DNA of 64,000 bases from Arenicola marina (Eukaryota > Annelida > Polychaeta > Arenicolidae), in the NCBI GenBank assembly GCA_964019135.1, contig OZ025248.1, positions 75,150,119 to 75,214,118 of the forward strand, read 5' to 3'. Positions 2,423-58,929 of this stretch are shown here, in pieces. The position numbers were made by a program, and so were the translations under genes. Positions within the stretch are counted from its first letter, which is position 1, and the number at the start of each line of letters is the position of its first letter. The notes under the pieces were generated by a model that worked only from the letters and a program-made list of their open reading frames with translations, was not told the origin of the DNA and did no database searches.

Positions 2423-2692
2423 AAAAGCGAAAAGCACAAGGGACACCAAAGTCAGGCCAAACAGAAAGAGATTTTCACCGCCCACTATTTTGCCAATAGA
2501 AATAAGAGACACATGCAACCCGTTTACTTTATGTTCGAGACAGATCATGGAAGACCTTTACAATAATGCGGCATGCTTCCCATGCTATCCACGCCCAAGC
2601 ACCAAGCAGGAAGCTGGGTGGGTGGGTGGGGGCAGCCTGTAAGCTGGCGCGTGCTCAGTCACCGATAATTGGCTACTAGGTCAATCACCTTC

Positions 2693-3050
2693 TAGTGTGT
2701 ATCGTGTGAACCGTTAGCCAACTGTTAGTGTGTATCGTGTGAACCGTTAGCCTAGAGCTAGTGCGTATCGTGTGAACCGTTAGCCAACTGTTAGTGTGTA
2801 TCGTGTGAACCGTTAGCCAACTGTTAGTGTGTATCGTGTTAACCGTTAGCCTAGAGCTAGTGTGTCGTGTGAACCGTTAGCCTAGAACTAGTGTGTATCG
2901 TGTGAACGTTAGCCTAGACCTAGTGTGTCGTGTGAACCGTTAGCTTAGAGTAAGTGTGTATTGACCGTTAGCCTAGAGCAAGTGTGTCGTGTGAACCGTT
3001 AGCCACGTGCTAGTATGTATCGTGTAAACCGTTAGCCTAGTGTGTATCTT
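2693..3050. repeat. Degenerate ~31-33-bp tandem repeat
   Basis: About 11 diverged copies of a unit around GTGTGTATCGTGTGAACCG followed by TTAGCC, with indels between units. It is much older or less homogenised than the two arrays to its left. Confidence 0.9.
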
Positions 3051-33106: not shown

Positions 33107-34965
33107 TAACTTGAATGATTATGTGGTAGGTAGGCATGGCTCAGGAAGCAGATTTGGAAAGTGTACAGTGATCAGTCATTCATAAACTTTGATATGTGTC
33201 ATGAGAGATAGCCACTGGTCTGTTACTTAAAGGAGTAGCGAGAGGTAGATAGTCTTTGTATATATACAATTGGCATCAGAAGATCATGGTTATGGTAGGA
33301 GGGGGGGGGGTAGGGAATTGCAGTTATTCCCAGGGAAAAGCCCTGGTCCCTGCGTTACCGTCATATACAGATGTTTTGGAACACCCGAAAAATAATTAGA
33401 AACCTAGGTGTGCCAAAAAATATATAATTTTCCAGCTGTTCCAAAACTTTGATAAAAAAAATTTTTGGTGGGGTGAGGTGGTGGGGGGGAGGGGGGTAGT
33501 AAAGGGCAGGGGGCTTGTACGGTCAGCTAGCCCAAGAGATTTTGTAACCGTGACCACCACAGGATGCAGCCACCACAGGATGCATGTAAGGGGCAGGGTG
33601 GGGTGATGTCAGCCAGTCAACTGTCCCACAGTATTTGGCTTCCTTGCTTCTTGTCAAACAAAGCCTGACACCAGGGTAAGGGGATCGGTCGAGAAGGAGG
33701 GGGAGGGGGGAGGTGTCACAAACTTAGCAGCTCCATCACCGAAAGTGCTTGGGGTGGGGTGGGCAGCGGTTGGAATGGAGATTACTGTTGGTCAACCAGC
33801 TCTGATAGACAGAAGAGAAGTGGAGAAATGTGGGTCACATGGCTAGGCAGGGGTGGGGTGGAGGGTGGTGAAGACAGAGCAGTCAGGCAGCCCTGACATA
33901 AACAATGTACGCAAGTCAGCGGGGGGGGGGAGGGGGTGGTGGAGGAAGAGGTGGTCAGTCAGGCAGCCCTGACATACATACGATGAGCGTGCAGGTACCA
34001 CTGCAAGTTTTGACTGGCATCAGATATGCCCGAAAAACCAACACTCCTTTACAATATTACCCATTTGAGTAGTTTGAGTGATATTGGTGAGCATGGGAAC
34101 TGATGCCAGAGCCATGGTCTTCCTTCTTGTTGTAGTGAATAAACTATTGAGACCGATTTCAATGTTATATGTCTTATATCTTCACAGCCGCGACCTAACT
34201 AGATAGGTATATTTCCGGAAAATTAAGGTGTACTAAAACATTGATACAAAAAAATTACCCACCATCTGTGGTGTACTAAAACATACAGCCACGAGAAATA
34301 ATTATTTTTTCCAAAATTGGGGGTGTTCCAAAACATAGGTACATTTTTGGTGTTCCAAAACATACGTAAATGACGGTATATGATTTCTGTTCTGCCATCC
34401 GAATGAAATGACTATATAATGGAGGAGGCCCTGGCTCATTTTTCCAACTTATCCATGATAGCATCAGCATTCTGTCACACAAAGCATCTATGCTGTTTTG
34501 GTTTTTCCAGTTCTAGCCATTGTGTATATGTATTGACTTAATTACTTAGATAGCCCTACTTATATCAAATGTATACAAAGGTGTGGATAACAATGAATCA
34601 CATGTGTGCTCCTTACCAACCAGTCATATTAGCTCAATGTATTGTTTGTTCAGAACCAATCGGGTCGACTGCCACACCACTCTGCCATGTGGTGAGTTCA
34701 CAAAGCGATTGGATTGTGTGCCAGTCACATAACAAGCGGAAATGTTGGTCATAAGTCACATTAGCGAGGGTGTCTCATAATAAAGGGGTTTTAACATGTA
34801 AAAGTATTCTGTACGCAGAGAAAGAAGTGGATAACAGTCATAAAATGCAGGGGATCACTGTACTTGTAGCAACAGTTCCATGGGAAATAGACACTTTATC
34901 CTGATGCTTTACAGCGCAACTACAATTTAAGGGTATCAACAATTTAGAAAAGTCTTTCATTTCAG

Positions 34966-37900
34966 TACTTGAGTGGCTTTGGAGGTGAGGTTGAAACAGA
35001 AGATCCAAGGTGCCCTGGCTCTCTTCCTCAAGGCCAGGTAGGAGGACATTATTATTTGGTATTATGTACCAGTGGTTATCTGAGATTAATATTTGTAAAT
35101 ATTTACCCTTATCAAACCTGCACAAACAATGCAGCTTATCATAATATGATATAACTGACATGAAATTGATGTACTGACTATTTGGTTTCAGAATAACCCT
35201 CAGCAATGCCCGTATGGTCTGTATGCCGAACAGCTATCAGGCACTGCATTCACTGCTCCAAGGGACAGCAACCGTAGAAGGTGTTAATTAATGCCATCAT
35301 CTTAAATTGCCATCATCTTAAATTGCATGTATAGATATGCAATGAAATAGAAGCTAAAAGTGTGTGTATCTTAGAGCATTATTGCAGTTTGTTTAAAAGA
35401 GTGACTACCCATTATTACTGACAGAAGTCTAAAGACTTCTGTCAGTATACTGCTCAGCTCGGTTTGTAAATTTATTTATTTATATGTTTGTTAATATGTT
35501 TGTCATCAAGGTCTAGGGCGCATGGTAACAGTTACAGTTGTCAGACTTACTCTACTGATAGATATCTGAAATAGCTCGGCTAAGTTCGTTATTGGCATAT
35601 GTAGGTCAGAGATCAAGGTCAGCGATTTTTTGAAAAAAAGTTATAAACGCCTTTATCTCCGTTAATATTACACCTAGAGAGTTCGGGTAAGTTTCATAAT
35701 GTGCTACTATTCATGACGCATCTTCCAGCTATTGACCATTTTTTGACGCGTCATACTCGTTTTCGAGCTACATGACGTTTTATGTTTTCTGAAAAACGCA
35801 AAAGATGACCTTGAGCCGTTTTTCTGCGGTTTCACCAATTTAAATTAAAGATATCACTCTGGTATTCCGGCCTGCCATAGAAATATGAATGAGAATAGCC
35901 TCTGTAAAATCTGAGCTTTTTCGGATACGTCATATGACGTCACGAGAACGTCACTTTCGGTACATTAAAAAAATCTGCAAAAATCGGCAAAAAATGAAAA
36001 AATCTCGAAAGTGGCGTCATTTTGTAGGAAATGGGGTCCGATGTTTGTCTGCATCATAAAAATAGTATGTTCCTATCTTACTTCCGGTTCCAGGGGTAAC
36101 GGCAATTCCCTATGGGACCTCCAATGTTAAAGCCCTCAATCTCTCAGGCTGGGGAAATTTGTTCGCCCCGTATTTCATCGGTGCCTTCATCAAACAGTTT
36201 CGGGATTTTTTCTTTGGTTAAACATGGTACCCAGTAACCATGATCCTTATTAGATGGAATTCGACCAGGAACTGACGTCACAGGATTTTTATGAAATTTT
36301 CCCCATTGTGAAAGATAGGGATTTCGGGGGCTTGCAGGGGCACCCACGAGCGTCCTATTAAAGCCATCGCTCTATACTTGCAGTTGTAGAAGGATAGTAG
36401 TAGGATGAGCCATTAACTATAAACACGGCGACATAGCTCTGTAACTTTATGGTATATAGTCGAACGCGTTTAACGGGATCCTATGGAGATAATCAAACTT
36501 CCTTCAATATGAAGTACTTCCGTTTGAACGATCTCACTTTGCTTTACCACCGTGCGAGATGTGGACGAGTACAAGAGACTCAGGGTAGGTTGACGGCAAA
36601 CGTGTGTCTTAGTTTTGTTTCGATGGAAACAGAAGATTTCCCCAATGATAAAGTATACAAATTCCCTCTAACTTAGAAAATTCGTCAAAAATCGGAAGAA
36701 CTAGCTAGGCCTTCCATCTTTGCGTATATTGGTAGGGAATATATGTCTCCAGATTACTATTGGCAGAAAAGCATTATTATTCTTTACATCTTAGCTGCAG
36801 AATCCTTTTTTCGTCTGCTCGTTTTTCATTTACCCGTAATGATGAAGAATAGCAATTTTCGGTAATTAGGTGAAGATATATCTGAACGACAAACGGTCCT
36901 ACCGCCGTTCTAATCAACGTTTTGGATTGAGGGCACAAATCTTTGTGTTTAGATATTTGAACGTTGCCGTGCGTCATGCCATGACGTCATAATTTTATAA
37001 CCTCTGTTGCTCGACTATTATACCTCATAGCGACTACCGGTTGATTTGGCGCTGTACCTTATATCCACGCACAAATGTTGCCGTGCGTATCTTTTTTTGC
37101 GGTACCGAAACGTGTGCGTCAAAAATGACATTCAAGCTTACGTTACCCGACGAAATTGTGAAATCGTTTCATTTTTACCTATTTAACCACTAGGTAATAT
37201 CACTATAAGTTCATGAGTAGGTAACGTCAAAAGCTAGAAGCCAATTTGGTAAGCGTCAGTGACGTCATGTGACGTCACGATGACGTTTCATGGCAACGGA
37301 ACTAAGCCCAATGATAAGTATAGAGATTCTGGCCAAATAAGAAAATTTGTCAAAAATCAGGAAAGCAAGTTAGAGCTGCGCTTGTTACGGTACTTAGTAG
37401 GGCTGAACTATACATGAACATACCTGTGCTCACAATTGACGTATTGCCCTTACCCTGGGAACCATGGGGCCGCACAAAGGCTCGGTCGCCAATGATGAGA
37501 GAATGGGGAAATGGACTCCAAGCACTTTCGATTCCCTCAGGTTGTCCCTTGTAGGTGCGATTGTGGGCTAAAATGCCCGTTGTATGAGTTATTTCAAGCT
37601 ACATTGACCGCTGCAGACCCTATTTAGACCAAATAGGATGATAATTTAGCAAATGAATTTTCCTGATCGTCTGTAACAAAATCACTTCTGTCAGTAAGCC
37701 TCAGCCTCCGGCTGATTTCGGCTATTGTTTATATATATTTTGGTACACACAAGAAAGACATGTACAACAATTACAAAAAATATTCTCAAAAATGCAGCCC
37801 CCCACCCTCAACCAAAAATCTAGCGTTCCCAAAATTGTGGTACCATATTATACTGGTTATATTGCTTCTCTATGTGGAGATGGTAACTGCACCAAATACT

Positions 37901-40900
37901 GATCATCCCTCTCTGTTCCTTAATTTACTGATATTGAAGTCTTTTATTTTTAGTTGGCTGTACCGAATCCGCCCTGCAGTGTTACACAAGCCATGGAGTC
38001 GCATTGAGAAGCAAGGCAACTTGACCAACAAATTTGAGGACACTGAGCCTGATCCCGCTCAAATGAGATGGCTTCCGTTTGACATACCTGATAAATCCAA
38101 GGGTCAAGTGGACTTTGTGGAAGTATGTGTTGAAGATATCTAAGAGAAATTATAGCTGCCAGGTATACACCGGTTGACATTTTTGTGTTTAGGAGACCTG
38201 GAGAGTATAGCTCGTTATATCTATTAGTGAAGTTCCACTGAGTTATTCTTCATTGTGTATACAGTCTATATGTATTAGAGTTGTATCTTTGAAAACTCCC
38301 AAAACTCCCAAAATGCACTGCCAATGACATTCACCTCAGAGAGCTCGGGAAGACTATAGTCGGGTGATACCTCTTCGTTGAGAATGGAATACCGCGTGGT
38401 GCCTGAAAAAAAACTGGTTAGGAATAAATCAGATGTAAACAATCTAGACAGTTCAGAGTTGATCAGTAAGTAATTTTACTCTTATTACTTAGCAATTTAA
38501 GGTGAATAGGACCTGTGGCTTTGAGAAATTGTGCAGCTATTTCTTCTTAATATAATAAATGTACAATAAGATATTTGGTGAAATTTATATTTTGATGGAA
38601 ATACGACTTACATGGAAGACAGCTGGGTGGCTCATACTTCTAACTTGGTGAAAGACAACATCGTGCAACTCGGTTGATTAAATAGAAATAATCTGTTATT
38701 GTCAAATACACATGCCCTACTTTTAGACCCGGGGTAAGTTCTCATCTCATCCCAGTAGTAATTTTCTCTTCCTCTTGCAGGGCCTCAACACTCTTGCTGG
38801 AGCTGGAGATACTAAAGCCAGACATGGCGCAGCTATCCACGTCTATTGTTGCAACGCTTCCATGGGTGATAAGTAAGTTTTACGCCAAGACATGTACGCG
38901 GCGGGTCGAGCTGTAGGCCTGTAGGTCAAATACTCCCATCGGCCGGCCAAAGACTTGAAATGTACCGGCATGTACAATTGCAATTGATCACGTGGACTTC
39001 TGAACCGTTGAACATACATGTCCGGTAATCCAAATACAAGTTTCGTTCGACATGTCAAGAATTGCGTTTTCTGCTTTGACTAGGATATAGTTCCAAAAGT
39101 TGAAGTATGTTTACGTTATATACATGTACCTATTCTCGTATTACAGGTTTACGCATCTTTCACATATAATGATAACATAGTAATTGATTACTTTCAGGGC
39201 CTTTTACAACTCTGATGGAGACTTCCTTATCGGTATGTAGTACGTACGTGTCTTGGTACAAATGTCATGTAAATTAGGAATTATACTAAGTTAACGGATA
39301 GCGTCTCTGCATTTAATTGTCACTTCTCCATCGTTCTCCGGGGGAAGATTCCGTCTGTAAATGAATGAATTTGTCTTTGCCTATCTTATAACCTAGTTCT
39401 TCTCTTGTGTGAATTTTATAGTTTTGGTACAATGCTATGCTGTGAATGTAAATCGTGAAAGTAAATGCTTATTGCTCAATTCTAACATCGAATCGAGCAA
39501 TGAATGGAAAATTATCCACAAACTGGATATATTATAACATTGTTACTATAATAATACCGGTAGTACTATTATGTTATCTTATCTATTATTACTTATCTTA
39601 TCTTATCTTAAATTGTTATGATACGTGTTTCTTCAGTTCCGCAGCAGGGCACCCTTTATGTGACGACCGAGTTTGGAAAGATGGTTGTGGAGCCACAAGA
39701 AATCTGCGTTATTCAGGTACATGTATATGTGATGGAATTTTCCGGTCTGATTTAATATTTGTAACAAGTTTACCTGATGCATATTATGCAGTTGAGATTT
39801 TGTTCTTTTAAGTCGAAGAAAGTAAGTCAAGACGTTTTGAGAAGTGTTATCACTGGTACTCTGCGGCGTATGGTAACAGGAACTTGCACGCTTTTATCAC
39901 AGCATGGGATCCGTTTCAATGTGGCTGTTGATGGAGAAAGTCGTGGCTATATCCAAGAGGTTTACGATGCCCACTTCAAGTTGCCGGATCTCGGCCCTAT
40001 CGGTCAGTTCATATTAAATATTCTTTTTGTCGTCTGGATTCTTACTTTTAAAGCTTATTCAAATTTGTTTTCTTGGATCTTGTTTTAATTTGATTCGTGC
40101 TTCGAGAACAAAGTCGAAGTGCAGCTACAATCGGAACAACGAACTGCAATCCATGATTGCATTTATCTCTCATTCTACTGAATTTATTCATTTATATAAG
40201 GTAGCTGTTCTAACACTTCGTTTGTTCGCTCAGGCGCCAATGGCCTGGCCAACCCACGTGACTTCAAGACACCTGCGGCATGGTACGAGGATAGGGACGC
40301 CAAGAACTACAAGATTATTTCCAAGTACCAAGGAGCGCTCTTTGTCGCTGAGCAGGTATGGTTATCTCCCGTGTGTTGATTTGTAAAGTGCGTTAAATTT
40401 AATTGAAGACTGTTATTTTGGCTTTCATCTGTACCTGAATTCCAATGTCAACTTTTCTCAAATTAAAATCAGAAGGAGCGAGCCCTTTTCCAGGAGGGAA
40501 GTCTAACTAATGTAATTTAGTTTAAATTTAGGCATATCAAGAGTCAAGCAACATTAATCATATTTGTTTACTTACTTATACTGACAGAAGTCTAAAGACT
40601 TCTGTCAGTATACTGCTCAGCTCGGTTTGTAAATTTGTTACTGACAGAAGTTGAAAACTTCTGTCAGTATAGTACTATGTTCGGTTTGTAAATTAGTTTG
40701 TTTGTTAAGACGAAATATCGTAGATATGTCGTCTTATGTCGGAAGGACGATTTTTTTGAACAACGATGTTTGCTTGTTAGCATTTTTTCCTACCCTCTAC
40801 TGCCCTAACGACGACAGCTATCGTTCACCAATATTGATGGAAATGTGGCGTGTCCGAATCTCTACAATTGTCATGTCATACACTTTCCAATGTCAAAGGA

Positions 40901-43900
40901 CAAGGCCGTCCGGTTAAAGGAAAAACGTAAAAGTGCTAAGGCTTTCTTAGTATTTGTCCTAAAGAGATGCGACTAGCGTCAAAATGTTCCACTGATTAGG
41001 GGAAACAACTTTAATATAGATCATTTTTTTGCGCGTAGGAAGAAGTTTCGCGCAAAATGACGTCATAGTTTACCTTGTCCTTATGTTCAAACTAGATGCA
41101 CGTTGTTTTTTCACTTTAACTTTCTCAATCGTCGCCAATCTCCAATGATGTATTCAGAAAGTCGCTATGACCCATTTCCCGAAGAAAAAATCGCCGTCAG
41201 TGACGTCACATGGCGGCAAAAAAAAAGAAATATTTAAATACGCATTAAATTCACTGTATAATTAATATTGGGAATAGAGAGATCGGATTCGGGTCACAGA
41301 ACGTCTAATTTTACCGCCTAGTTGTTTCTTAGTTAAAAAAAGATCCCGCTAGAGGGCCAAACATTCCTTATGGGGATTCCCATGTTAAAGTGCGAGCGGA
41401 CAGTGAGCGATTGGAGTGAGTGAGCGGTTCGCGATAAAGCACCGTGTTGTTTATATATTGTGATGTGATTTATCGGGAGAGGCGACCAGGCACAGTCGTG
41501 GGGAGGGAGTGAATGGAGCAGGTAGCACACAAGTACAGCGCATTGATATTGTGTACAAAGAGTTCCGAACGAATCGCCCCCGCAGCCGCCCACCACCATC
41601 ACGGACTCCAGCCCGTCGACACTCATCAAACTCCGGCATTACTGGCACGCCCCCCGCCCACCGGCATCCACTAGACTTAAGCTTTATGCACTCCTGTTAT
41701 TGTTCGTATCTTCTACTGACCTAACGACAACATCTATCGTTCACAAACTTTTATGGAAATGTAGCATGTGCCAGCCTCTACGATGTTCAAGTTACGGTCT
41801 TCCCAATGTCAAAGGTCAACGGTCAAGGCCATCCGATTAAAGGAAAAACGTAAAAGTACTAAGGCTTGCTTAATATTTGTTCTAAAGAGATACGACTAGC
41901 ATTAAAATGTTCCACTGATCTGGGGACACAACGTTAATATGGATAATTTTTTACGCGTAGGAATGACGTCATAGTTCTCCGTGTCCTCATGTTCAAACTA
42001 GATGGACATTGTTTTCCCACCGTATTGTTTACGTATTGTAATGTGATATATTGGGAGAGCCGTCGGCCTCAGTCATGGGAAGGCAGCAGGTTGAACACCT
42101 CTTAATAGACCGTCCGCCCCACTCCCTTCCACCAGGCTCATGCACTGATCCCTTCCACAGCCTTCACCCTCACTCGTCAGAAAGAATCATTCACTCCTGG
42201 CCCCCCCCCCCCTCCCACCCCACTCCACCTCGTCCACTCGCACCCGCCGTGCATGGGCGTGTCCAGGGAGCACGCACGCACCGCGGTCGCCTATATACTG
42301 TGGCCCATAGACAAGAGGGGGGAGGGGCGTGGAGCTGACCGAGGGAGTATTGTTTGGGTTTTCCCAAAAGACATATTGTTGTGTGGTTATGCCACATAGA
42401 CAAGAGGGGGGAGGGGCGTGGAGCTGACCGAGGGAGTATTGTTTGGGTTTTCCCAAAAGACATATTGTTGTGTGGTTATGCCACACCCCACGCCCCCTCC
42501 CCCCTCAAGCCAATACTCCCTCGTTCAGCCCCATGGTATCTGGTATGTTACATAAGGATGTCATGGTATTCCATTGATAACGAATAATTGCGTGAAACTG
42601 CGATCTGCCGATTTGCAATCTGCCGTTCTGCAATGATCTGCAATCTGCCGATCTTATTCCATTGATAACGAATAATTGCGTGAAACTGCGATCTGCCGAT
42701 CTGCAATCTGCCGTTCTGCAATGATCTGCAATCTGCCGATCTGTATTTTAAAGACGCCCATGCGCACATACTAATGTATTGAGATTATGAGACAATGCGT
42801 CTCGAAACAGCTGGTCGATTTATCGCGTGGTTACGGCCCCACACGACAGCGTGGCTTATCAACACGGCATAAACACGCTCTGCTGTCTTATCTGCTAATG
42901 AGGGAAACAACAACAAGACGGCGAGGCGGTGGAAGGTCGCCAGCGTTGACAGGGCTCGCGGTGTGTGTGTATGGGGCGGGTGGGTTCAAGCTGAGGTAGT
43001 CACCTTGTCCTTATGTTCAAGCACGATGTACCTTGTTTTCCCACTTTAACTTTGCTCCCGCCTCCACCCACACATCCCCGGACAACTGCGCCCCCCCCCC
43101 CCCACCCCGGGCAAATCCCCACAATTCCCTCACAGACCGTGCCCCCCCCCCCCCCACACACACACAATGCTTTCTACCGCCACTCCCCTCCCCCTTTGAC
43201 AATCACCCTGTCCCCTTCATGACAATTCTCCCTCGATCAGCCCCATGCCTCATACCCCCCCCCCCGCCCCCCAAAGCTATGCTCCCTCAATCAGCCCCAC
43301 ACCCCTCCTCCCTCATGACAATACTCCCTCAGTCAGCCCTATGCCCCCTTCCCCCATGACAATACTCCTGACAATCAGCCCCATGCTTCATCCCGCCCCA
43401 CACACCCTAAGGCTATACTCCCTGGGTCAGCCCCATGCCCTCTTTCTCCATGACAATACTCCCTCGGTCAGCCCCATGACCCCCGCCTCCATGACAATAC
43501 TCCCTCGGTCTGCCTTATGCCCCCCATCTCCACGACAATAAACCCTCGGGCAGCCCCATGGCCCCGCCCTCCAAGACAATAATCCCTCGATCAGCCCCAT
43601 GCTTCATCCCGCCCCACCCCCCACGGCTATACGCCCTCGGTCAGCCCCATGCCCCCTCCCTCCACATGACAATACTTCCTCGGTCAGCCCTATGCCCCCT
43701 CCCTCCACATGACAATACTTCCTCGGTCAGCCCCATGCCCCCTCCCCACATGACAATACTCCCTCGATCAGCCCCATGCTTCATCCCGCCCCACCCCCCA
43801 AGAATATACTCCTTGGGTCAGCCCATGCCCTCTTTCTCCATGACAATACTCCCTCGGTCAGCCCGACGCCTCCTCCCTCCTCATGACAATACTTCCTCGG

Positions 43901-46900
43901 TCAGCCCCATGCCCCCTCCCCCCATGACAATAATCCCTCGGTCTGCCCCATGCCCAAGACAATACACCCTCCTCATGACAATACTTCCTCGGTCAGCCCC
44001 ATACCCCCTCCCCCCATGACAATACTCCCTCGGTCTGCCCCATCCCCAGGACAATACACCCTCGGGCAGCCCCCCCGCTCCCCTCGAGACAATACTCCTT
44101 CGGTCAGCCCCATTCCCCCCCCCCCCCCGAGACAACTCCCTCGGTCAGCCCGACGCCTCCTCCCTCCTCATGACAATACTTCCTCGATCAGCCCCATTCC
44201 CCCTCCCTCCACATGACAATACTTCCTCGGTCCGCCCCATGCCCCCTCCCTCCACATGAAAATACTTCCTCGGTCAGCCCCATATGCCCCCTCCCCCCAT
44301 GACAATACTCCCTCGGTCTGCCCCATCCCCAAGACAATACACCCTCGGGCAGCCCCCCCCCCCGCCTCGAGACAATACTCCTTCGGTCAGCCCCATTCCC
44401 CCCCCCCCCCCCCCGAGACAACTCCCTCGGTCAGCCCATTCCCCCTCCTCAATCATGGCAATACTCCTTCGATCAGCCCCATGCCCCCTCCCCCCATGAC
44501 CATACTCCCTCGGTCAGCCCCATCCCCAAGACAATACACCCTCGGGCAGCCCCCCCCCCCCCCCTCGAGACAATACTCCCTCGGTCAGCCCATTCCTCCT
44601 CCTCAATCATGGCAATACTCCCTCGATCAACCCCATGCCCCCTCCCTCCACATGACAATATTCCCTCGGTCAGCCCCATGCCCCCTCCCTCCACATCAAA
44701 ATACTTCCTCGGTTAGCCCTATGTCCCCTGCCCCCCATGACAATACTCCCTCGATCAGCCCCATGCCCCCTTTCCCCCCGAGACAATACTCCCTCGGTCA
44801 GCCCAATGCCCCCTTCCCCCATGACAATACTCCCTCGGTCAGCCCCATGCCCCCTGCCCCCCAAGACAATACTCCCTTGGTCAACCTGGGCTAGGAGCTT
44901 GGGCTAACGGTTTAAGCTAGCGGCCTGGCTTAGCAGCCTGGGCAAAGCTGCCTGGGCCAGGGGCCTGGGCTAGCGGCCTGAGGTAGCGGCCTTGGCAAGG
45001 CCTAGATTGATGCCCTGGCTAGCCGCCTGGGTTGGCGCCCTGGCTAGCGGCCTGGGTTAGCATACTGGGCTAAACCTGGGTTAGCATACTGGGGTAAACC
45101 TGCGCTAGCGGCCTAGGCTAGCAACCTAGGGTAGCTTACGGGGGTAACGCCCAGAGCCAGCAGCCTGGACTAGCGGCCAGGGCTAGGCCTGGTTTAGGGG
45201 CCTCGGCTGGTGCCCTGGGCCAGCGGCATGTGCTAGTAGCCTGGGCCTGAGCTAGCCTCCTGAGCTAGCTCAGGCCCCTGAACGAAAAAAAAGAAAAAAA
45301 TTCTCGTGGATCTAGGAGCAATGCCTCCGCTATTTTCCAATATGACGAACCAGGCCAGCAAAATACTGAATATCTTGAAAACAACAGGTATAGAACTATT
45401 ATTTTGATACCTGTACATATTTTTTCGGGGTCACTGAATTCGAAAGAAAATAATTATTGAATATCCTGTTGCAACATGTTTTTTTCTTCAAAATGGCGGA
45501 CAAGACCACGAAAATACTCAATACTTTGAAAATTAACACTGATGATTTTTATGTTTATGTATACTTTTTGGGAAATAAAGAAGTGCTATTGTCTTAATTG
45601 GGGCAACGCATCTGCCATTTTTCCAAGATGACGGATACGGTCTGTAACAGTACATAACATCTCCAAAACGAAGTGGGATCACTCTATGTAACTCTATGTA
45701 TTGGTTTTCGTGGTCAAAGAATTCAACAACTTGTCTTCAAGAGCAAGGCGTCTTTAGTTTGCCATAATGACGGCTATTTCAACAATAATACACAATATCT
45801 GGAAGTCTAAAAGGTGCAGGGGCGTCATTGTGAGGATAACCATATGTACCGTGGTCACAGATCTACAAACAATAGGTTACAGATTTCGAGATCTAGGTTT
45901 ATTTCGCTCGTATCTCGTAGCTTTGCTCGCAAAAATGCGTGTCAAGTTCGCAACGGAAACCTGAAACACTTACCCTCTCATTGAGAATCATCCGCGCCCG
46001 CCATCACTACGAGTAAATGTTATGGGGTAACTACAAGTAGAACGCCATCCCAGCCAATTGGAGAAACTCTCTGGTGACAAGTCAGAACCTTCTGAGTGAG
46101 GATGTTTAGGCTGTAGATACAGGGTTTAGGCTACAGAGACAGAAGTCATCCATAATGGTTCATGTGGCATACTCCGAACCTGCAAAGCTATGGCTAGACA
46201 TCAGAATAACTGTTTTATCCTTGTCCTTGTCAGTTTCCAAGATACTATGGAAATTGCCGCCATAGACGTCAGGTGTCAAATCTGATTTGACACTATAGCT
46301 CAATTTGATTAGCCATGGTGGAATTTCGAACATGTGTGCCAAATTGATGCTTTTACCACAACATGCACGATTGTTTCGCATATGCGCGGGACTATCATCT
46401 ATTATACGGTAGGGTGGCTTCCGGTGTATTTTACGTTACACGTCGTCTTCAGAGACACCTTATGGCGAGGGTGATAAGTGTGCGTCAACGTCACAGGTAA
46501 CATTCTCCTACGAAAGATTAGGCCAGCTTGATGTTCAGCTAATTTGGCAATAGCTAACATCACCCATAAGTTCATGAGTTCACCCATGAGTTCATAAGTA
46601 GGTATATTTAGCAAAATAGAAGCCATCGCGAATATTGTCGTGACCGTCAAATGACGTCACGAAGACATAATAAATAAAAGATGTGAAAGTACCGTTAATA
46701 ATGCTTCAAGAGAAGCGCTCTTGGCTTCAAACTGGATGTTCATTTAAGCTCCGCCTACAGTGCCCACACTGCCTGTTGAAGGCAGCATTTAGCCCAAATT
46801 GCGCTTAAAAGGCCCTTCAGCCGAAATTGGCCCTGACGACTGGTCACGTCACCATTATTACAGCTTCCAAAAGTACTTATGGATTTTCGTCCTCGACCTA

Positions 46901-49900
46901 TGGTCGAATATCTCTTGTTTGTTTGTCAGCGCGCTTTAGGGCGCACAGTTACATGTAGGAATGTTATATTGCACCTTCAGATAGATATGAAGAATTGTGA
47001 GGCAAAGTTCATTAACGGTGTATGTAGGTCAAAGGTCAAGGTCACAGCGATTTTTTGAAAAAATTACGTAAAACGCTAATATTTCCGTTAATATTAGAGC
47101 TAGCGACGTCGGATCAGTTTCATAACGTGCTACTAGATACGGCGCAACTTTCGCACATTGTTCACTTTTTGATGCGTCATACTCATTTTCGAGGAAAACG
47201 ACGTTTTATGTTTTTTGAAAAACGCAAAATATGACCTTGAACGGCTTTTCTATAGTTTGACCCATTTCGGTTGAAGATATCGCTCTATGCCTCTAACACG
47301 TCATAGAAATATGGATGACAATGAGTTTTGTGAAATCGGAGATTTCGCGGATACGTGCTATGACGTCACGGTGACGTCACTTCCGGTACATTAAAAAAAA
47401 TCGCCAAAAATCGGAAAAAAATCACAAAAAAATGCGAGTGGACTCATCTTGCGTCAAATGTGGTCCTATGTTTGCTTGTAACATAAAAACGGTATGTTCC
47501 TATCTTACTTCCGATTCTAAAGCTGGCGCAAAATTCACTATGGGAATCTCCATGTTAAAAACCTCAATCCTTTATCATTACAGTCACATTTTGTCGCATA
47601 ATTCAGAAGTGCCTTTTTTAAACAGTACACAAAAAATTTATGTACTGTAAGACGGTACCCAGCAGAGGTTGTCCATTGCCTGTGTGATGCGACCCGGAAA
47701 TGACGTCACAGGAAATTGTCAAATATTTCCCCATTGTGAAAGATAGGGATTTTTGGCGATTGCAGGGGCTCCCACGGGCGTCCCATTGAAGCCATCGCTC
47801 TATGCTTTCAGTTGTAGATGGATACTAGTGGGATGAGCCATTAACTATAAACACGGCGATATAGCCCTGTAACTTTTCGGTATATAGTCGAACGCGTTTA
47901 ACATGGGACCCTATGGAGATAATCAAACTTCCTTCAATATGACGTACTTCCGTTTGAGCGATCTCACTTTGCTTTACCACAGTGCGAGATGTGGAAGAGT
48001 ACAAGAGACTCAGGGTAGGTTGACGGTAAACGCGTGTCTCAGTTTCGTTTCCATGGAAACCGAAGATTTTCCCAATGATAAAGTATACAACTTCCCTCTA
48101 ATTTAGAAAATTCGTCAAAAATCGGAAAAACTAGCTAGACCTTCGATCTTTCGGTATAATGGTAGGGAAGATATGTCTCCAGATTACTATTGGCAGTAAA
48201 GCATTATTATCTTTTACATCTTATCTGCATAGTCTTTTCTTCGTCTGCTCGTTTTTCACTTATCCGTAATGGTGAAGAATAACAATTTTCGGTAATTAAG
48301 TGAAGCTATATCTGAAGAACTAACAGACCTACCGCCGTTCTAATCAACGTTTTGGATTGAGGGCATAAATGTTTGTGTTTAGATATTTGGACGTTGCCGT
48401 GCGTCATGCCATGACGTCACCATGACGTCATGACGTCATAATTTTATAACCTCTATTACTGGAATATTATACCTCATAGCGACTACCGGTTGATTTGACG
48501 CTGTACCTTATATCAAGGGACAACTGCTGGCGTGCGCAACTTTGTTTGCGGTACCGAAATGGTAAATGGCGATAGAGTTGCTCTAGGACGCTTAGTTTGG
48601 CCGCTAGAGCGCTCGCAAGAGGTGCACCCCCTTTGCTGAAGCTCCCATTATGAGTCAACGGCGATATCGAGCGGCAATGCCTCTGCTTTGCGATGGCCGC
48701 CGTTTGCTTAATAGCGACGCTAGAGAGTCGGGACTGGTTTGAAAGGACGGGCAAACGGCGACTTTGGTGAGGAATCCGCATTCGCTTCTAGCCTAGCACG
48801 CTTAGTTTTGACGCTGGAGGGCTCCGTAATTTAGCAATGATGAGTCCGAGAACAGGCATTAGGGCGGGACGAAGCACACGTAGAAAGTCGGGCATTGGCC
48901 GACTTCACTCAAAATGGCGCCCTCTATCTGGGAAAACAGCCCGCGTTGAACAGCAGCCGTTAGATTGTGCTATTCCAGCATCCGCATCGTAGAGGTCCAA
49001 TTTGGGCCCAATTGCGCTTTCAGCGAGCCCAATACGGCTTTCAGTGGGCAGTGTGGGCTAGAACGCCTTCGGATATCGGCATTATTGAGCCCAAATTGGC
49101 CGCTGAAGGCCGTAATTATTCCAATTTGCCCGTTTATAGCGCTATTTAGCCCACGTTGTTCGTTCAAGGAGCTGTTTAACCCAATATGCCCACTGAAGGC
49201 ATCATGTAGCCAGCACGAGGCAGGAACAGCTTATAGTATATGTGTTTCTGCATGTCATCGCCTGTACCATAGTTTCGGCGCATAACTGGTGCCACAGACG
49301 TGTGCGTCAAAAATGAGGTCACTTCTGTCAGTAAGCCTCAGCCTCCGGCTGATTTCGGCTCTTGTTTGTAATATTGATTTGTGGGCTCTGTTAAGAAGAA
49401 AATTAAGATATGACGGACCAATGCAGTGGCTTTTGCCGTGACGTCCCGTTCATCTTTCTTTTCAGGATCATTCGCCTTTCGATGTTGTGGCATGGCACGG
49501 CAACTATGCGCCATATAAGTATGACCTGAGAAACTATATGGTCATTAACTCGGTGGCTTTCGATCATGCTGTAAGTTAATAGTCTATTAACCTTTTTTTA
49601 GAACTTTTATATGCTTTCCTCTGCTAATAAATCCTATACTAGTATTATTTTGTTACCATTGGACCCGGAAGATGTATATGCATCTGCGTGATATGTCGCA
49701 CATATTCATAGGGTAAGTATTGAAGAAATATCCGTTACGTGTATATGCAGTGTGCATTGTATCGATTCCTTCCAGAAATGTCCCCATCTACATACATATA
49801 TTGGTATATCTATGTTAATATATAGATATATATATATGGATAATATATAGCGTTCCTTGATTGGCAAACCTACATGCCCAGTTGCGCCGGTTTCACGGAT

Positions 49901-52900
49901 ATCACCATGAATTGTGTGTCATGTGGATATCAGGAAAGTGTATCACAATTTCTGTTTTATCCTTCATATACTTGAAGGATCCTTGCATCTTCACCGTGCT
50001 GACCTGCCAATCGATGAGGCCTGGGGTCGCCATTTCGGACTTTGTCATCTTTCCCCCGCGCTGGGGGGTCAGTGACCACACCTTTAGACCACCATATTAT
50101 CACAGTAAGTCACTGCAGAACAATATGCATGTATTTACATGTACACGTTTATCTATGCGGGTGTAAAATGATAAAAGTTACGGCCAATCCAATGCCACTT
50201 TCACGTAAAATGATAGAAATTAGAGCCAATCCAATGTCAGTTTCGTCATCATTTGACTCTTAAAACATGTATTGGCTTACACGGGAAACGAGAGCATTTG
50301 AAGATTGTGACACTGGTTATCTCTTCAAAATAATGCTGATAAGCATCTGCAACTGATAAGTGATAAGACTTTTAGTTGTAATCTCATGCCTATGAATGCA
50401 TTGTTTCCGTTTTATTAGTGTTTACACCGAATAACGTTTTTCAGTTGAAGCTCAAAATGTTTTTTAAACTATTTTTAACATTTAATATTATATAAATGCT
50501 GTGATTTTTTTTTGATTTTTTCTTAGGGAATTGCATGAGTGAATTCATGGGGCTCATCGTCGGCAAGTATGAGGCGAAGGTAACGATCTTGTGTTATGTA
50601 TGACCAGTTACTGGAATGGTATGCTTTGATTGGCTTTTCATGGGACACGGCCTCGCTCAGATAGATTTAACCCAGACCTCTTCTAGGAGAATATAAATAT
50701 ATGCGGAAAAAAAAATCTCCGGTGCAGGAGAATCCAACCCGGTCTGATTTTGAATCTGGTCTAAAACCCGGTGTGCAGGCGACAGCCAACAATGCTCCGG
50801 AGATGTACCTCGTGGATACCCTAGAGCCAGCGTTTTTTAGTTAACCGACCTCTAGGTTTTGATACTTGCACTTGTAGCGTCTCAGGGTGAAAAAAAATTA
50901 ATAACAGAAAACATGTACACTAACGATGACATTCTATCTGAGAACTATTCATCCCATGCAAGTTCTGCTGGACTTATTATTATTGTCACTGGGCTCACTG
51001 CCTAGTCGAACGTTCATCTTCTGTATGACAATTTGGTGACCTTTCTACTTTAAGGAGGAGGGTTTCCAGGCGGGCGGCGGCAGTCTGCACAGCATGATGA
51101 CGCCCCATGGACCCGACGTCGACTGCTTCGAGAAAGCGTCGACGGACGACCTGCAGCCTCAGAGGGTGGCCGAGGGGACCATGGTAAGTCAGCCTGAGGG
51201 TGGCCGAGGGGACCATGGTAAGTCAGCCTGAGGGTGGCCGAGAGGGCCATGGTAAGTCATCCTGAGGGTGGCCGAGGGGACCATGGTAAGTCATCCTGAG
51301 GGTGGCCAAGGGGACCATGGTAAGTCATCCTGAGGGTGGCCGAGGGGACCATGGTAAGTTATCCTGAGGGTGGCCGAGGGGACCATGGTAAGTCATCCTG
51401 AGGGTTGCCGAGGGGACCATGGTAAGTCAGCCTGAGGGTGGCCGAGAGGACCATGGTAAGTCATCCTGAGGGTGGCCGAGGGGACCATGGTAAGTCATCC
51501 TGAGGGTGGCCGAGAGGACCATGGTAAGTCATCCTGAGGGTTGCCGAGGGGACCATGGTAAGTCATCCTGAGGGTGGCCGAGAGGGGACCATGGTAAGTC
51601 ATCCTGAGGGTGGCCGAGGGGACCATGGTAAGTTATCCTGAGGGTGGCCGAGGGGACCATGGTAAGTTATCCTGAGGGTGGCCGAGGGGACCATGGTAAG
51701 TCATCCTGAGGGTTGCCGAGGGGACCATGGTAAGTCAGCCTGAGGGTGGCCGAGAGGACCATGGTAAGTCATCCTGAGGGTGGCCGAGGGGACCATGGTA
51801 AGTCATCCTGAGGGTGGCCGAGGGGACCATGGTAAGTCATCCTGAGGGTTGCCGAGGGGACCATGGTAAGTCATCCTGAGGGTGGCCGAGGGGACCATGG
51901 TAAGTCATCCTGAGGGTGGCCGAGGGGACCATGGTAAGTCATCCTGAGGGTGGCCGAGGGGACCATGGTAAGTCATCCTGAGGGTGGCCGAGGGGACCAT
52001 GGTAAGTCATCCTGAGGGTGGCCGAGGGGACCATGGTAAGTCATCCTGAGGGTTGCCGAGGGGACCATGGTAAGTCATCCTGAGGGTGGCCGAGGGGACC
52101 ATGGTAAGTCATCCTGAGGGTGGCCGAGGAGACCATGGTAAGTCATCCTGAGGGTGGCCGAGGGGACCATGGTAAGTCAACCTGAGGGTGGCCGAGGGGA
52201 CCATGGTAAGTCATCCTGAGGGTTGCCGAGGGGACCATGGTAAGTCATCCTGAGGGTGGCCGAGAGGGGACCATGGTAAGTCATCCTGAGGGTTGCCAAG
52301 GGAACCATGGTAAGTCATACTGAGGGTGGCCGAGGGGACCATGGTAAGTCATCCTGAGGGTAGCCGAGAGGGGACCATGGTAAGTCATCCTGAGGGTGGC
52401 CGAGGGAACCATGGTAAGTCATACTGAGGGTGGCCGAGGGGACCTTGGTAAGTCATCCTGAGGGTGGCCGAGGGGACCATGGTAAGTCATCCTGAGGGTG
52501 GCCGAGGGGACCATGGTAAGTCATCCTGAGGGTGGCCGAGAGGACCATGGTAAGTCATCCTGAGGGTGGCCGAGAGGACCATGGTAAGTCATCCTGAGGG
52601 TGGCCGAGAGGGGACCATGGTAAGTCATCCTGAGGGTGGCCGAGGGGACCATGGTAAGTCATCCTGAGGGTGGCCGAGGGGACCATGGTAAGTCATCCTG
52701 AGGGTGGCCGAGGGGACCATGGTAAGTCATCCTGAGGGTGGCCGAGAGGACCATGGTAAGTCATCCTGAGGGTGGCCGAGAGGACCATGGTAAGTCATCC
52801 TGAGGGTGGCCGAGAGGGGACCATGGTAAGTCATCCTGAGGGTGGCCGAGGGGACCATGGTAAGTCATCCTGAGGGTGGCCGAGGGGACCATGGTAAGTC

Positions 52901-54645
52901 ATCCTGAGGGTGGCCGAGAGGACCATGGTAAGTCATCCTGAGGGTGGCCGAGAGGACCATGGTAAGTCATCCTGAGGGTGGCCGAGAGGGGACCATGGTA
53001 AGTCATCCTGAGGGTGGCCGAGGGGACCATGGTAAGTCATCCTGAGGGTGGCCGAGGGGACCATGGTAAGTCATCCTGAGGGTGGCCGAGGGGACCATGG
53101 TAAGTCATCCTGAGGGTGGCCGAGAGGACCATGGTAAGTCATCCTGAGGGTGGCCGAGAGGACCATGGTAAGTCATCCTGAGGGTGGCCGAGAGGGGACC
53201 ATGGTAAGTCATCCTGAGGGTGGCCGAGGGGACCATGGTAAGTCATCCTGAGGGTGGCCGAGGGGACCATGGTAAGTCATCCTGAGGGTGGCCGAGGGGA
53301 CCATGGTAAGTCAGCCTGAGGGTGGCCGAGAGGGGACCATGGTAAGGAGGGTACCGATAAGGCCATCCACACTCTATATTACCAGTTATTCTGCCACCCT
53401 GAAGATTTCAGTGGTTGCAGAGACAGAGGCGGATGTAAGGGGTGGTGGGGGGGGGGGGTTTCACCCCTCCTTGGAAACTTGAGCATAGGCATAAGTCAGG
53501 TTATCGGAGCAACCCTCTTCACCCCCGCCCCCACCCCCGCGGTCGCAAGTTCTCGTTTTGCAAAGCCCTGCAGAGATAATGCCAAGCATCCTAAAGATAA
53601 TGTCAATCACACTAAAATAAAACAATGCTTCGCTCTGACACGGAAGAACGACATTGAGAGTGATGCAAATCTTGATTTAACAGTCCGGAACCGCCACGTT
53701 GCTTACCAGGTCAACTCGATTTCGGATCCCTTTGGTGACCTTGCCTGACCCAAATTACAGTCGATTGCTTTCCCAGTGGGGTTTCACTTTTGAGTGGCCA
53801 GAAATTTAGCAGTCTACTGCCGATAGACATCGATATGGAGTTTTGATTTGTCATGGTGTTGATCGCACTATTTATATTTCACTTGGCTTTCAGGCCTTCA
53901 TGTTCGAGTCGTCGCTGAGCATGGCTGTCACCCCGTGGGGACTGAAACACTGTGACAAGCTGGATGCCACCTATTACAAGTGCTGGCAGGGACTGAAGAA
54001 ACACTTCAACCCCGACTGGAAGCCTGCGTACGTGTTTCTTTCCCCAGGATGGATATCAGGATCTAGCCGAACATAATACCGTCAAACCCCAATGAAATCA
54101 ACACTTCGTGGTGCTTCTCTCTAGTGGATGTTGTAGGAGCACGCTATGATATCAAAGCATTGGACAATATTTAATAGTGTTACTAATTCGAAAAACTATC
54201 TTATGCAAGTATAATTGTAGTGTTTACCAACTTTGCATTTTTGTTACACTAAATCGCCACTATATTATGCTTATGATTTAGGATAGTGCCGGTCTGTGGC
54301 TTAAATTAACTGATCTCCATGGCAGCAGATAGGTGGAGATCGACTGACTGTCGTTGGCACCCTATCCTCGCCTTGATTATGTCCCCTATCATCGCCTCAT
54401 TATACATAGGGTTCTAGACCCATGGCCAAAGACATCACCCCTTAAGTCGCCCGTGCACCTCCGCCCTCATGTTCAATACTAGCGTCTGTGGCATAATGCA
54501 TTTTTTATATATTCACATAAGTTCTTGCCTATTGTCTATGACGTGTGTCCTATACATACGCCTTTGCGTGCTCCTGTTCCACAGCTCTGCCAACGGCCCG
54601 GCCCAGGCAGATGAAGCCCCGAAGAAGAGGAAGCGCTCCAAGTAA
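34966..54645 (+). CDS. HGD: Homogentisate 1,2-dioxygenase (first short exon not found)
   Basis: A cytosolic non-haem iron enzyme that opens homogentisate to maleylacetoacetate in tyrosine and phenylalanine breakdown. Fourteen exons: 34,966-35,037; 35,192-35,280; 37,954-38,122; 38,781-38,872; 39,198-39,232; 39,637-39,716; 39,903-40,002; 40,234-40,355; 49,466-49,570; 49,978-50,104; 50,527-50,579; 51,055-51,183; 53,894-54,027; 54,585-54,645. They total 1,368 nt (455 codons plus TAA), all in phase. Active-site residues known from human HGD are present: the catalytic His in AFDHADP, iron ligands in YYHRNCMSEF (His and Glu) and the third in [10 protein letters not shown]. The human start MAELK precedes YISGF, so only a tiny ATG exon is missing upstream. 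The C terminus has an extra exon ending PKKRKRSK. Confidence 0.97.
35417..37730 (+). mobile_element. 2.3-kb element (copy A) in HGD intron 3
   Basis: Starts with the hairpin ACTGACAGAAGTCTAAAGAC then TTCTGTCAGT and ends with ACTTCTGTCAGTAAGCC then TCAGCCTCCGGCTGA, itself a hairpin. The outer ACTGACAGAAGT is inverted at the far end. About 2.2 kb of it is homologous to 46,920-49,366. No transposase is readable; one frame of about 70 codons is shared by both copies. I cannot assign a superfamily. Confidence 0.75.
40790..41120 (+). repeat. Internal ~310-bp duplicated block, copy 1
   Basis: Contains CTATCGTTCACCAATATTG, CCAATGTCAAAGGACAAGG, TTAAAGGAAAAACGTAAAAG, AAATGTTCCACTGAT and TTATGTTCAAACTAGATG. 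A diverged copy (~80% by eye) is at 41,706-42,025, and its last part recurs at 43,002-43,045. Confidence 0.75.
41706..42025 (+). repeat. Internal duplicated block, copy 2
   Basis: Shares the ordered landmarks of the 40,790 block (CTATCGTTCACAAACTTTTA, TTAAAGGAAAAACGTAAAAG, AAATGTTCCACTGATCTGG, ATGTTCAAACTAGATGG). Both are part of the composite insertion in HGD intron 9. Confidence 0.75.
42304..42483. repeat. 89-bp tandem pair
   Basis: Two copies of a unit holding ATAGACAAGAGGGGGGAGGG, GCGTGGAGCTGACCGAGGG and GACATATTGTTGTGTGGTTA, identical as far as can be seen. Confidence 0.92.
42569..42746. repeat. 88-bp tandem pair with inner GATCTGCCGAT repeats
   Basis: Two copies of a unit starting CCATTGATAACGAATAATTG and containing several ~12-bp repeats of CTGCAATCTGCCGAT. 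Confidence 0.92.
43215..44885. repeat. C-rich ~38-bp minisatellite
   Basis: About 40 irregular units of the pattern GACAATACTCCCTCGGTCAG then CCCCATGCCCCCTCCCC, with unit lengths varying mainly in the poly-C part. It explains the long proline-rich frames on the plus strand and glycine-rich frames on the minus strand; none is a gene. The motif CTGACCGAGGGAGTATTG on the opposite strand also occurs in the 89-bp pair at 42,304, so the array may have grown from it. Confidence 0.95.
44886..45265. repeat. Degenerate GCCTGGGCTAGCGG repeat
   Basis: Roughly 14-bp units (GGCCTGGGCTAGCG, GCATACTGGGCTAA and similar) with heavy variation, starting directly where the C-rich array ends. Confidence 0.85.
45290..46900. 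other. HGD intron 9, old degenerate repeats
   Basis: At 45,290-45,740 about three diverged ~150-bp units share AAAATGGCGGACAAGACCACG-like and AATACTCAATA(C/T)(T/C)TTGAAAA motifs. Beyond 45,740 nothing clear is seen except GCCCAAATTGCGCTT-type sequence at 46,790 that resembles the repeat at 48,985. Confidence 0.5.
48985..49210. repeat. Degenerate ~36-bp repeat inside copy B
   Basis: About six diverged units around AGCCCAAATTGGCCGCTGAA and TTTAGCCCA. The ~36-bp period makes one frame read repeated P-N/I-C-P-L/F-K/I-A residues. Not a gene. Confidence 0.6.
51184..53345 (+). repeat. ~63 tandem copies of an HGD exon end plus its 5' splice site
   Basis: HGD exon 13 ends GAGGGTGGCCGAGGGGACC ATG and is followed by GTAAGT. 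Starting at that donor, a 34-bp unit, GTAAGTCATCCTGAGGGTGG then CCGAGGGGACCATG, repeats for 2,162 bp. Each unit is therefore nine intron bases plus 25 bases of exon end, and each recreates ATG/GTAAGT. The first units keep CAGCCTGAGG, closest to the exon (CAGCCTCAGAGG); later ones read CATCCTGAGG. A 36-bp variant (GAGAGGGGACC) recurs in a multi-unit pattern from about 52,540 on, showing higher-order copying. The array ends ATG/GTAAGGAGGG, probably the original intron start. Confidence 0.97.
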
Positions 54646-56629: not shown

Positions 56630-57556
56630 TTAAAATGTGATTAGTGTGAGATCATGGCCTTTCAAATGGAGCTTGTAATCGTCGAATGTAAATTCCCGGG
56701 ACATTTTGATGAATTCGGTTACGGCTTTTGGCAGCGGCAGTAATTCCGCCTTAGCTACACAGCTGGGACGAAGTAGGTAGCGAATCTTTCGTCTGCACGT
56801 TTCCATCAAAGTCCTTGGTTGCGAAGCATCCATCAGCATCATCTCCTCGATGCCGGGGTCCGTCTCAAACACATTCTTGACAAACGTCCGGTCATTCAAA
56901 CGACGCATGTCCACTTTGCACCCTGCGACGAGGAGATTCCTGATGGACTCCCGGTTGCTGGACATGATGGCGAGTTCCAGAGGGCTGTATCCATACATCA
57001 TGGATGTATCGCGCAGATCCGGGTCCGCCCCGTGCTGTAGCAGGACGCACTGCACTTCCAGATTCTCCAGCCGCGTGGCGATGTGGAGCGGGGTCAAACA
57101 GCCCTTGTTGAAGACGTTGAGCTTGCATCCGGCGGCGACGAGGGCGGGCACGACGATGGCGCTGTTCCTCCAAGCCGCGATGGCCAACAAACCGTCCCCG
57201 CTGCAGTCTGTCATGGACACATCCGTCGAGGCTCCAAGCAGCAGCTTGCACATGGCGAGGTCATCATTCTGAACGGCGTGCATCAGCGCGTGCGTCTGGC
57301 AGTGTATACCCCCGCCCAGGTTATACCGGATCATCACCCCGACGATGTCATGGTGACCCAGCAAGGCCGCTTCGGCTAGCACCGAGCTGAAGTACGAACA
57401 GTAGTCTGCCGGCAGTGTGGCCGCGCATTCCTTCAATAAGCGCTCCAGCCGTCTGGCGTTATTCTGCAGTAAACACTGCTGGATGATTCCAAGCCTGGTC
57501 TCCAAGTTTCCATGCTTCACTTTAATGCGATCAAGTACGTCACGTACTTTTTGCAT
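56630..57556 (-). CDS. Ankyrin-repeat and SOCS-box protein (ASB-like)
   Basis: Read from one exon, 308 residues. Ankyrin repeats occupy about residues 55-240: clear repeats include CLTPLHIATRLENLEVQCVL then LQHGADPDLRD, and GYSPLELAIMSSNRESIRNL. Near the C terminus lies a SOCS box: TLMETCRRKI fits the elongin-binding LxxxCxxx[ILV] pattern and LPLP fits the cullin-5 LPxP motif. Such proteins are substrate receptors of cullin-5 ubiquitin ligases; the target is unknown. The frame stays open upstream of the chosen ATG, and an acceptor-like TTTCAG near 57,635 means the true start may be in an upstream exon. The assignment to a particular ASB number is not possible. It is convergent with HGD. Confidence 0.88.
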   Translation of the reverse strand: MQKVRDVLDRIKVKHGNLETRLGIIQQCLLQNNARRLERLLKECAATLPADYCSYFSSVLAEAALLGHHDIVGVMIRYNLGGGIHCQTHALMHAVQNDDLAMCKLLLGASTDVSMTDCSGDGLLAIAAWRNSAIVVPALVAAGCKLNVFNKGCLTPLHIATRLENLEVQCVLLQHGADPDLRDTSMMYGYSPLELAIMSSNRESIRNLLVAGCKVDMRRLNDRTFVKNVFETDPGIEEMMLMDASQPRTLMETCRRKIRYLLRPSCVAKAELLPLPKAVTEFIKMSREFTFDDYKLHLKGHDLTLITF

Positions 57557-58929
57557 TATGAGTCGAGATTTTACCTGGACTATACCCCGGTGATCAAATT
57601 TAAATATGGAATTTCCAGCATTCCTGCATATAGCTGAAACATAAAAAGGGTTGAAAAAAATAAATAATCAAACAAATGAAAGTGAACGGGATTGGCTCAC
57701 GATAGATCTAAACTACTAATTTAAGACAACATTGAATCGTTACAGCAGAGAATATAATTGTATTTCAGGTTAAAAACATGTTGCTGGTTGTTTCAGAATG
57801 TTGGAGTTTTCGACCCAGGTCACGATAAGCCACTTCATCTTTTGTTTTTCACTCAGCTTATCTTACAACATCAACGAATGCCGTCAACATGTACCACAAA
57901 AGGCCTATATATATCCATGCCCGCCGGTCGTCATATAAGCTTCTATGTAAATGACGTACGTACAGCCCGCTGGCCCTAAAATTTTAACGGTAACATATTT
58001 GCGATGCATCATTTATCTAAACAACACTCAACGTAGCAACTGCCTTGAACTGATGTATTTTAGACGTTTTTGCGCAAAAGCGAACATCCATATGGAAAAG
58101 AATATCACAGACCTGGGAAGCGTATCTGTGCACGATATCAACACACACCAGTCAGACACACCCCCTACATGGTGCCCTGTCGATTCGAAAGCAGGGAACC
58201 AGCACCAATGGCATAATGACGAGGGAGTAACCATTGCGTGAATCGGGTTACGACCTTCATCCATGGCATATACCAGTATATTGTCATCACAGGCAGCGTG
58301 TAGGTAACATACCGGAGACATGGGTGCAGATTTCCAATGAACGTAATGTTCTATGCAATTCTATATAATAGATAATTAACATGGTCGACTGAGAAAGTAC
58401 TGCATGCAAATAATAATGGATCCCCTTCCTGGTCGTTTAGATTTCGCAAGTTGTGGTGGCTGACTGTAGTTGACAACTGAACAAGCACCTGACAAGGAGG
58501 GGCCGTCGTGGCTGCAAGTCGAACCAGTCTTGCGGAACACAGTCACAGTGCGTGACGCATGCAAGATATTGGCAAGTGCGTAAGTCGGCGCGCTATTGAT
58601 TTGAACATACATTTGGACTTGGTATTTTGCACAAATCTGAGGTAAGTCCATCACAGTTATAGGGCCTAGTTGACTGATTGTCATATACATCTCCTCATGC
58701 AGACATCACTATCAGTGTCATCATGCAGTCTCATTCGCATTATTCGCCAGTTCACGGAATCGTCATATTGACGCCAAACAAGGCTGTGACTGCAAACACA
58801 AACTGCCTGACTCACCCAACGCATGAAATCTAATCGACTAATATGGGAGACACTGCTGTGGATTCGCTGCGAAATAGCTCCTGGGTGATTTCAGTAATTA
58901 AATTACTGATTTCAGGCAGATGAAAAGGC

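Follow-up and report, generated by a model that had tools for sequence, protein, structure and literature searches.

A 34/36-bp minisatellite carrying 63 copies of a 5' splice site at an exon/intron border of the HGD gene of Arenicola marina

The gene for homogentisate 1,2-dioxygenase (HGD) of the polychaete Arenicola marina lies in a 64,000-nt stretch of contig OZ025248.1 (assembly GCA_964019135.1, positions 75,150,119 to 75,214,118 of the forward strand), which was analysed as a whole and is called the window below. At one exon/intron border of this gene stands a long minisatellite in which the 5' splice site (donor) of the exon is repeated. An earlier note, made from the letters of the window alone, had named the gene as HGD and had described a 5' splice site amplified about 63 times inside it, and both statements hold. 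In a tblastn search with Pseudoalteromonas HmgA (from a plasmid record) as the query, the HGD exons were matched in order on the + strand from 34963 to 54007, with a few weak and scattered matches elsewhere in the window, and the assignment is further borne out by the matches to a human HGD chain given below; Tandem Repeats Finder (TRF) and a decomposition into units both led to an authentic donor followed by 63 copies. The splice borders were read from the sequence, those of exon 6 being not fixed, and no 5' exon carrying the start codon was found; the exon in question is number 13 on the assumption of one unseen exon at the 5' end. Downstream of 54027 the gene is a prediction from splice signals and reading frame only. 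The features of the locus are as follows.

34966..54645, + strand: HGD gene, its limits being the first exon that shows homology and the stop codon of the predicted last exon
50527..50579, + strand: HGD exon 12, 53 nt, with homology to HmgA residues 334-350 and AG/GT borders
51055..51183, + strand: HGD exon 13 of 129 nt, ending in phase 0; the repeat derives from its last ~30 nt
51154..51189, + strand: founding unit as read from the sequence, composed of the exon tail (CAGCCTCA plus 22 nt) and the authentic donor ATG/GTAAGT
51162..53346, + strand: 34/36-bp minisatellite (TRF and unit decomposition), with the authentic donor and 63 copied donor-like sites
51229..51231, + strand: in-frame TGA within the second intronic copy, at which the reading frame of every transcript spliced at donor 3 or further downstream would end
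53347..53368, + strand: possible degenerate partial unit, from a local alignment to the unit whose score was reached by 1 of 500 base shuffles
53894..54027, + strand: HGD exon 14, 134 nt, with a putative GTACGT donor
54585..54645, + strand: predicted last coding exon, from splice signals and an open frame, without homology support

Exon 13 matches residues 382-422 of the human HGD chain 1ey2_A (E 3.2e-15) and exon 14 matches residues 423-464 (E 5.1e-13); because the two exons meet at adjacent human residues, 422 and 423, with none lost, the end of exon 13 is confirmed where it had been placed before. Variant names in excerpts of PMC12608343 put human HGD exon 13 at c.1007-1188, i.e. 182 nt, which equals the sum of exons 12 and 13 here (53 + 129 nt). 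Counting codons from Arg336 at the border of exons 11 and 12, the end of exon 13 would correspond to codon 396, or c.1188, and thus the intron that bears the array shares its position (c.1188/1189) with an intron of the human gene. What is a single exon (exon 13) in human HGD is divided here by the intron 50580-51054, which would have been either acquired here or lost on the human side.

TRF described the array with a period of 34, 63.8 copies, 95% matches and a score of 3960. It does not begin exactly at the donor, as had been thought, but inside the exon, at 51162. All 64 donors read GGTAAG, with their last exon-like bases running from 51183 to 53341; the authentic donor lies at 51183/51184, and the 63 further copies are in the intron. 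The donor 9-mer is ATG/GTAAGT in 62 of the 64 sites, TTG/GTAAGT in one and ATG/GTAAGG in the last, and the donors are spaced by 34 nt in 55 of 63 cases and by 36 nt in the other eight. The consensus unit consists of the hexamer CATCCT, 22 contiguous bases that match the exon end exactly, and GTAAGT, so that ~28 exon-derived bases plus the six of the donor make up the 34. A CAGCCT-like hexamer is set off by a two-base difference from the exon, which itself carries two extra bases (CA) after CAGCCT compared with the copies. The unit had previously been given as the last 25 exon bases plus ATG/GTAAGT; its composition from exon tail and donor stands, while the exon part has to be corrected to the 22 contiguous bases and the hexamer. 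Outside the array, GGTAAGT occurs in the window five times on the + strand and five times on the - strand, and the number of donors in the array is therefore, as sequence, far beyond chance.

In their order along the array the units belong to 17 sequence types. These types vary upstream and recur in blocks downstream, the last 24 of the 63 copies being made up of four blocks of 6, 5, 6 and 6 units (HHICCC or HHICC) and a single further unit. These block repeats suggest a past change of length, as judged in one haplotype. Among the 63 copies the hexamer is CATCCT in 52, CAGCCT in five and another sequence in six, the exon-like CAGCCT being kept in the first two copies, the last copy and two inner copies.

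Minisatellites straddling exon/intron borders of amphioxus Adh genes, to which the earlier note had pointed, are indeed in print under the name of mirages (PMC3087553). In the excerpts of that paper, Adh3 mirages are cited in B. floridae and B. lanceolatum, and globin cases (BflGb6 and BflGb9) are given for which instability is reported; excerpts of PMC3902484 add mirage-type repeats in amphioxus TnC and PGBD5, and according to both sources the edges of mirage clusters escape homogenisation. The unit of the HGD array likewise lies across an exon/intron border, splice signal included, and its 34-36 bp are inside the range of the Adh3 units (10-72 bp; excerpts of PMC3087553 and PMC3902484). Judged by its sequence, then, the array is a known kind of repeat, a mirage, in a very long example. 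In the comparison of copy numbers, which covers BflGb6 and PGBD5, the 63 donor copies of HGD stand against 6 and 3 units in the two haplotypes of the amphioxus globin gene BflGb6; PGBD5, as far as the excerpts describe it, has repeats of 60 bp as well as an imperfect 3 x 108 bp triplication. The exon-like CAG kept at the edges, together with the block repeats, fits an exchange of several units at a time with sheltered edges, as in the globin mirages. Introns of earthworm metallothionein genes also contain minisatellites, in which copied splice sites were not seen in the excerpts of PMC12783039. No paper on the HGD locus turned up in the part of the open-licence literature that was searched, on amphioxus minisatellites, mirages, tandem duplication, Adh and homogentisate. 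The locus adds a long case to a class of repeats that has been proposed as a route to new introns (excerpts of PMC3087553).

When 25 HGD junctions (13 acceptors and 12 donors; exon 6 left out) were probed with 24-mers allowing up to 3 mismatches, only the exon 13 donor had near-copies within 3 kb (61 of them). The other HGD borders showed no mirage-like copies, and an earlier probe of 18 junctions, some of them off by a base or two, agreed; as a background, 53 of 400 random window positions had a near-copy within 3 kb. The stretch is rich in minisatellites, with 15 arrays, merged by hand from 57 TRF rows with the smaller ones left out, covering ~14.5% of the window. GGTRAG is repeated in the HGD array only among these 15, and the array at 2692-3040 holds a single GTRAGT. 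Under random placement in the gene, one such array covered some exon border in 55% of the trials and any of the gene's four arrays did so in 84%; when only overlaps of 10-60 nt with an exon were counted, the situation seen in HGD, the shares were 6% and 22%. With placement figures of 6-84% in minisatellite-rich sequence, the position at a border alone is not astonishing.

The consequences for the reading frame were computed for all 64 donors with the predicted exon 14 donor and the predicted last exon. Donor 1 leaves the frame open through KKRKRSK, a basic tail encoded by the predicted last exon that resembles a nuclear localisation signal, to the stop codon. As had been anticipated, the 34 nt added by donor 2 put the sequence that follows out of frame, with a stop 72 nt before the last predicted junction. 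For donors 3-64 the stop is always the TGA at 51229-51231, which belongs to the second intronic copy and precedes that junction by 154-2244 nt. A premature stop is thus predicted for 63 of 63 later donors, and none of these stops is closer than 72 nt to the last predicted junction.

We consider it probable that the array is a tolerated, boundary-spanning mirage minisatellite, seeded by a tandem duplication over the exon/intron border. A local tandem duplication would have taken in the last ~28-30 nt of exon 13 and the adjoining 6 nt of the intron, and slippage or unequal exchange would later have lengthened the array, on the intron side throughout, to 63 copies. This reading is supported by the consensus unit, which equals the exon end plus GTAAGT, by the exon-like CAGCCT kept in the first two copies and the last, among others, by the exon, the intron position and the reading frame being intact, and by the premature stops predicted for all later donors, while duplication of several units at a time is supported by the repeated blocks of 5-6 units among the last 24 copies. 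The spliceosome would pair the exon 13 acceptor with the first donor, which is probably chosen as the earliest to be transcribed and the one that yields the usual exon of 129 nt, and the gene would stay functional. Mis-spliced products would be harmless and wasteful, and their premature stops should be cleared by nonsense-mediated decay. Most likely, the array is tolerated rather than useful.

Several points weigh against this reading, beginning with the use of donor 1, which we infer, as the earlier note did in holding that cells must choose this donor reliably. Where strong donors compete, the choice often falls on the one closest to the 3' splice site, which in this array would be the last copy. 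More than 60 near-identical strong donors do stand in a row, as had been claimed: besides the sequence identity given above, the computed U1 pairing is -9.1 kcal/mol for 63 of the 64 sites, including the authentic donor, and -8.5 kcal/mol for the last, so that donor strength cannot separate the copies. Among the 12 HGD donors scored (exon 6 left out), that of exon 13 is the second strongest, only that of exon 2 being stronger. In local RNA folding at three settings donor 1 ranked 21, 38 and 32 of 64 in accessibility, and the last donor was by far the most accessible, opposite to the expected direction; RNA structure as the reason for the choice of donor 1 was rejected, donor 1 being not unusually accessible. 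The segment 51055-51350 folds moderately better than its shuffles (z -2.28; 2 of 200 as good). Donors 2-6 would give exons below 300 nt (163-299), and hence exon length alone cannot explain the choice either. Moreover, the 72-nt figure depends on a last exon predicted without homology; if that exon were wrong and exon 14 the terminal one, transcripts from donors 2 and 3 would probably not be degraded; the stop precedes the junction of exons 13 and 14 by 20 nt for donor 3 and by 54 nt for donor 4. The conservation of the donors speaks for the tolerated array instead, as selection on the copies left no significant trace in the 55 units of 34 nt: the donor 9-mer held 1 of 11 substitution types (binomial P 0.17), and 1 of 9 sites in the 9-mer was variable vs 9 of 25 in the rest of the unit (Fisher P 0.22). 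With 11 substitution types the power of this test is low, which again weakens the case. The cues remaining for donor 1 would be transcription order and exon definition from the acceptor at 51054. With 64 near-identical strong donors, only the first of them predicted to be productive, the locus offers a natural test of 5' splice site choice, the models at stake being exon definition, transcription order and closeness to the 3' splice site, with predictions at opposite ends of the array.

On the other hand, the array might control the dose of the enzyme, a part of the pre-mRNA being spliced at later donors and destroyed, such that array length sets the enzyme amount. That 63 of 63 alternative donors are predicted to be non-productive would suit such a control, as would the pairing energy shared by all but the last site, which is stronger than that of 10 of the other 11 HGD donors scored. 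However, the copied donors lack significant excess conservation, and the mirage data in the excerpts of PMC3087553 and PMC3902484 suggest that regular splicing is undisturbed; we regard dose control as improbable. A copy-number rheostat, in which 64 near-equal donors compete, the later ones feed nonsense-mediated decay and the length sets the dose of homogentisate dioxygenase, perhaps with lengths differing between individuals or tissues, seems very improbable.

The repeat units could also serve splicing more directly, a few early copies acting as alternative donors that make protein variants. Splice variants of the human gene IFI6 keep their reading frame. IFI6 (6-16/G1P3) likewise has a minisatellite that supplies multiple splice donor sites, two downstream repeat units acting as donors to give three mRNA species, according to excerpts of PMC4526556 (PMC2572611 merely cites the IFI6 paper). 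Consensus donors recur in the HGD units as well (ATGGTAAGT in 62 of 64, GGTAAG in 64 of 64), but whereas IFI6, in these excerpts, uses later units for alternative mRNAs, no later HGD donor is predicted to yield the normal reading frame. Donor 2 shifts it and donors 3-64 stop in the second copy, which leaves no variant with a normal C-terminus possible, and such a use is extremely unlikely. Full-length enzyme variants through later donors are ruled out by the frame. As for an assembly artefact, i.e. a short true array that was inflated or misassembled, there is a precedent in the genome-draft version of one globin mirage, which appeared misassembled (legend of additional file 4 of PMC3087553). 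The 17 ordered unit types, however, are not a simple expansion of one unit, and an artefact is unlikely.

In two other HGD introns, a 58-base stretch (37682-37739 and 49319-49375) is 94.8% alike (E 1.1e-19) and is probably part of an interspersed repeat. In the window no tRNA was found and no Rfam family matched at the gathering threshold. The array at 340-1510 has 45 copies of 26 bp, 98% alike, and is open in all three + frames, its period being not a multiple of three. Beside HGD, at 56633-57667 on the - strand, lies a 345-aa open stretch that contains ankyrin repeats and a SOCS box; from these domains we take it to be an ASB-like gene.
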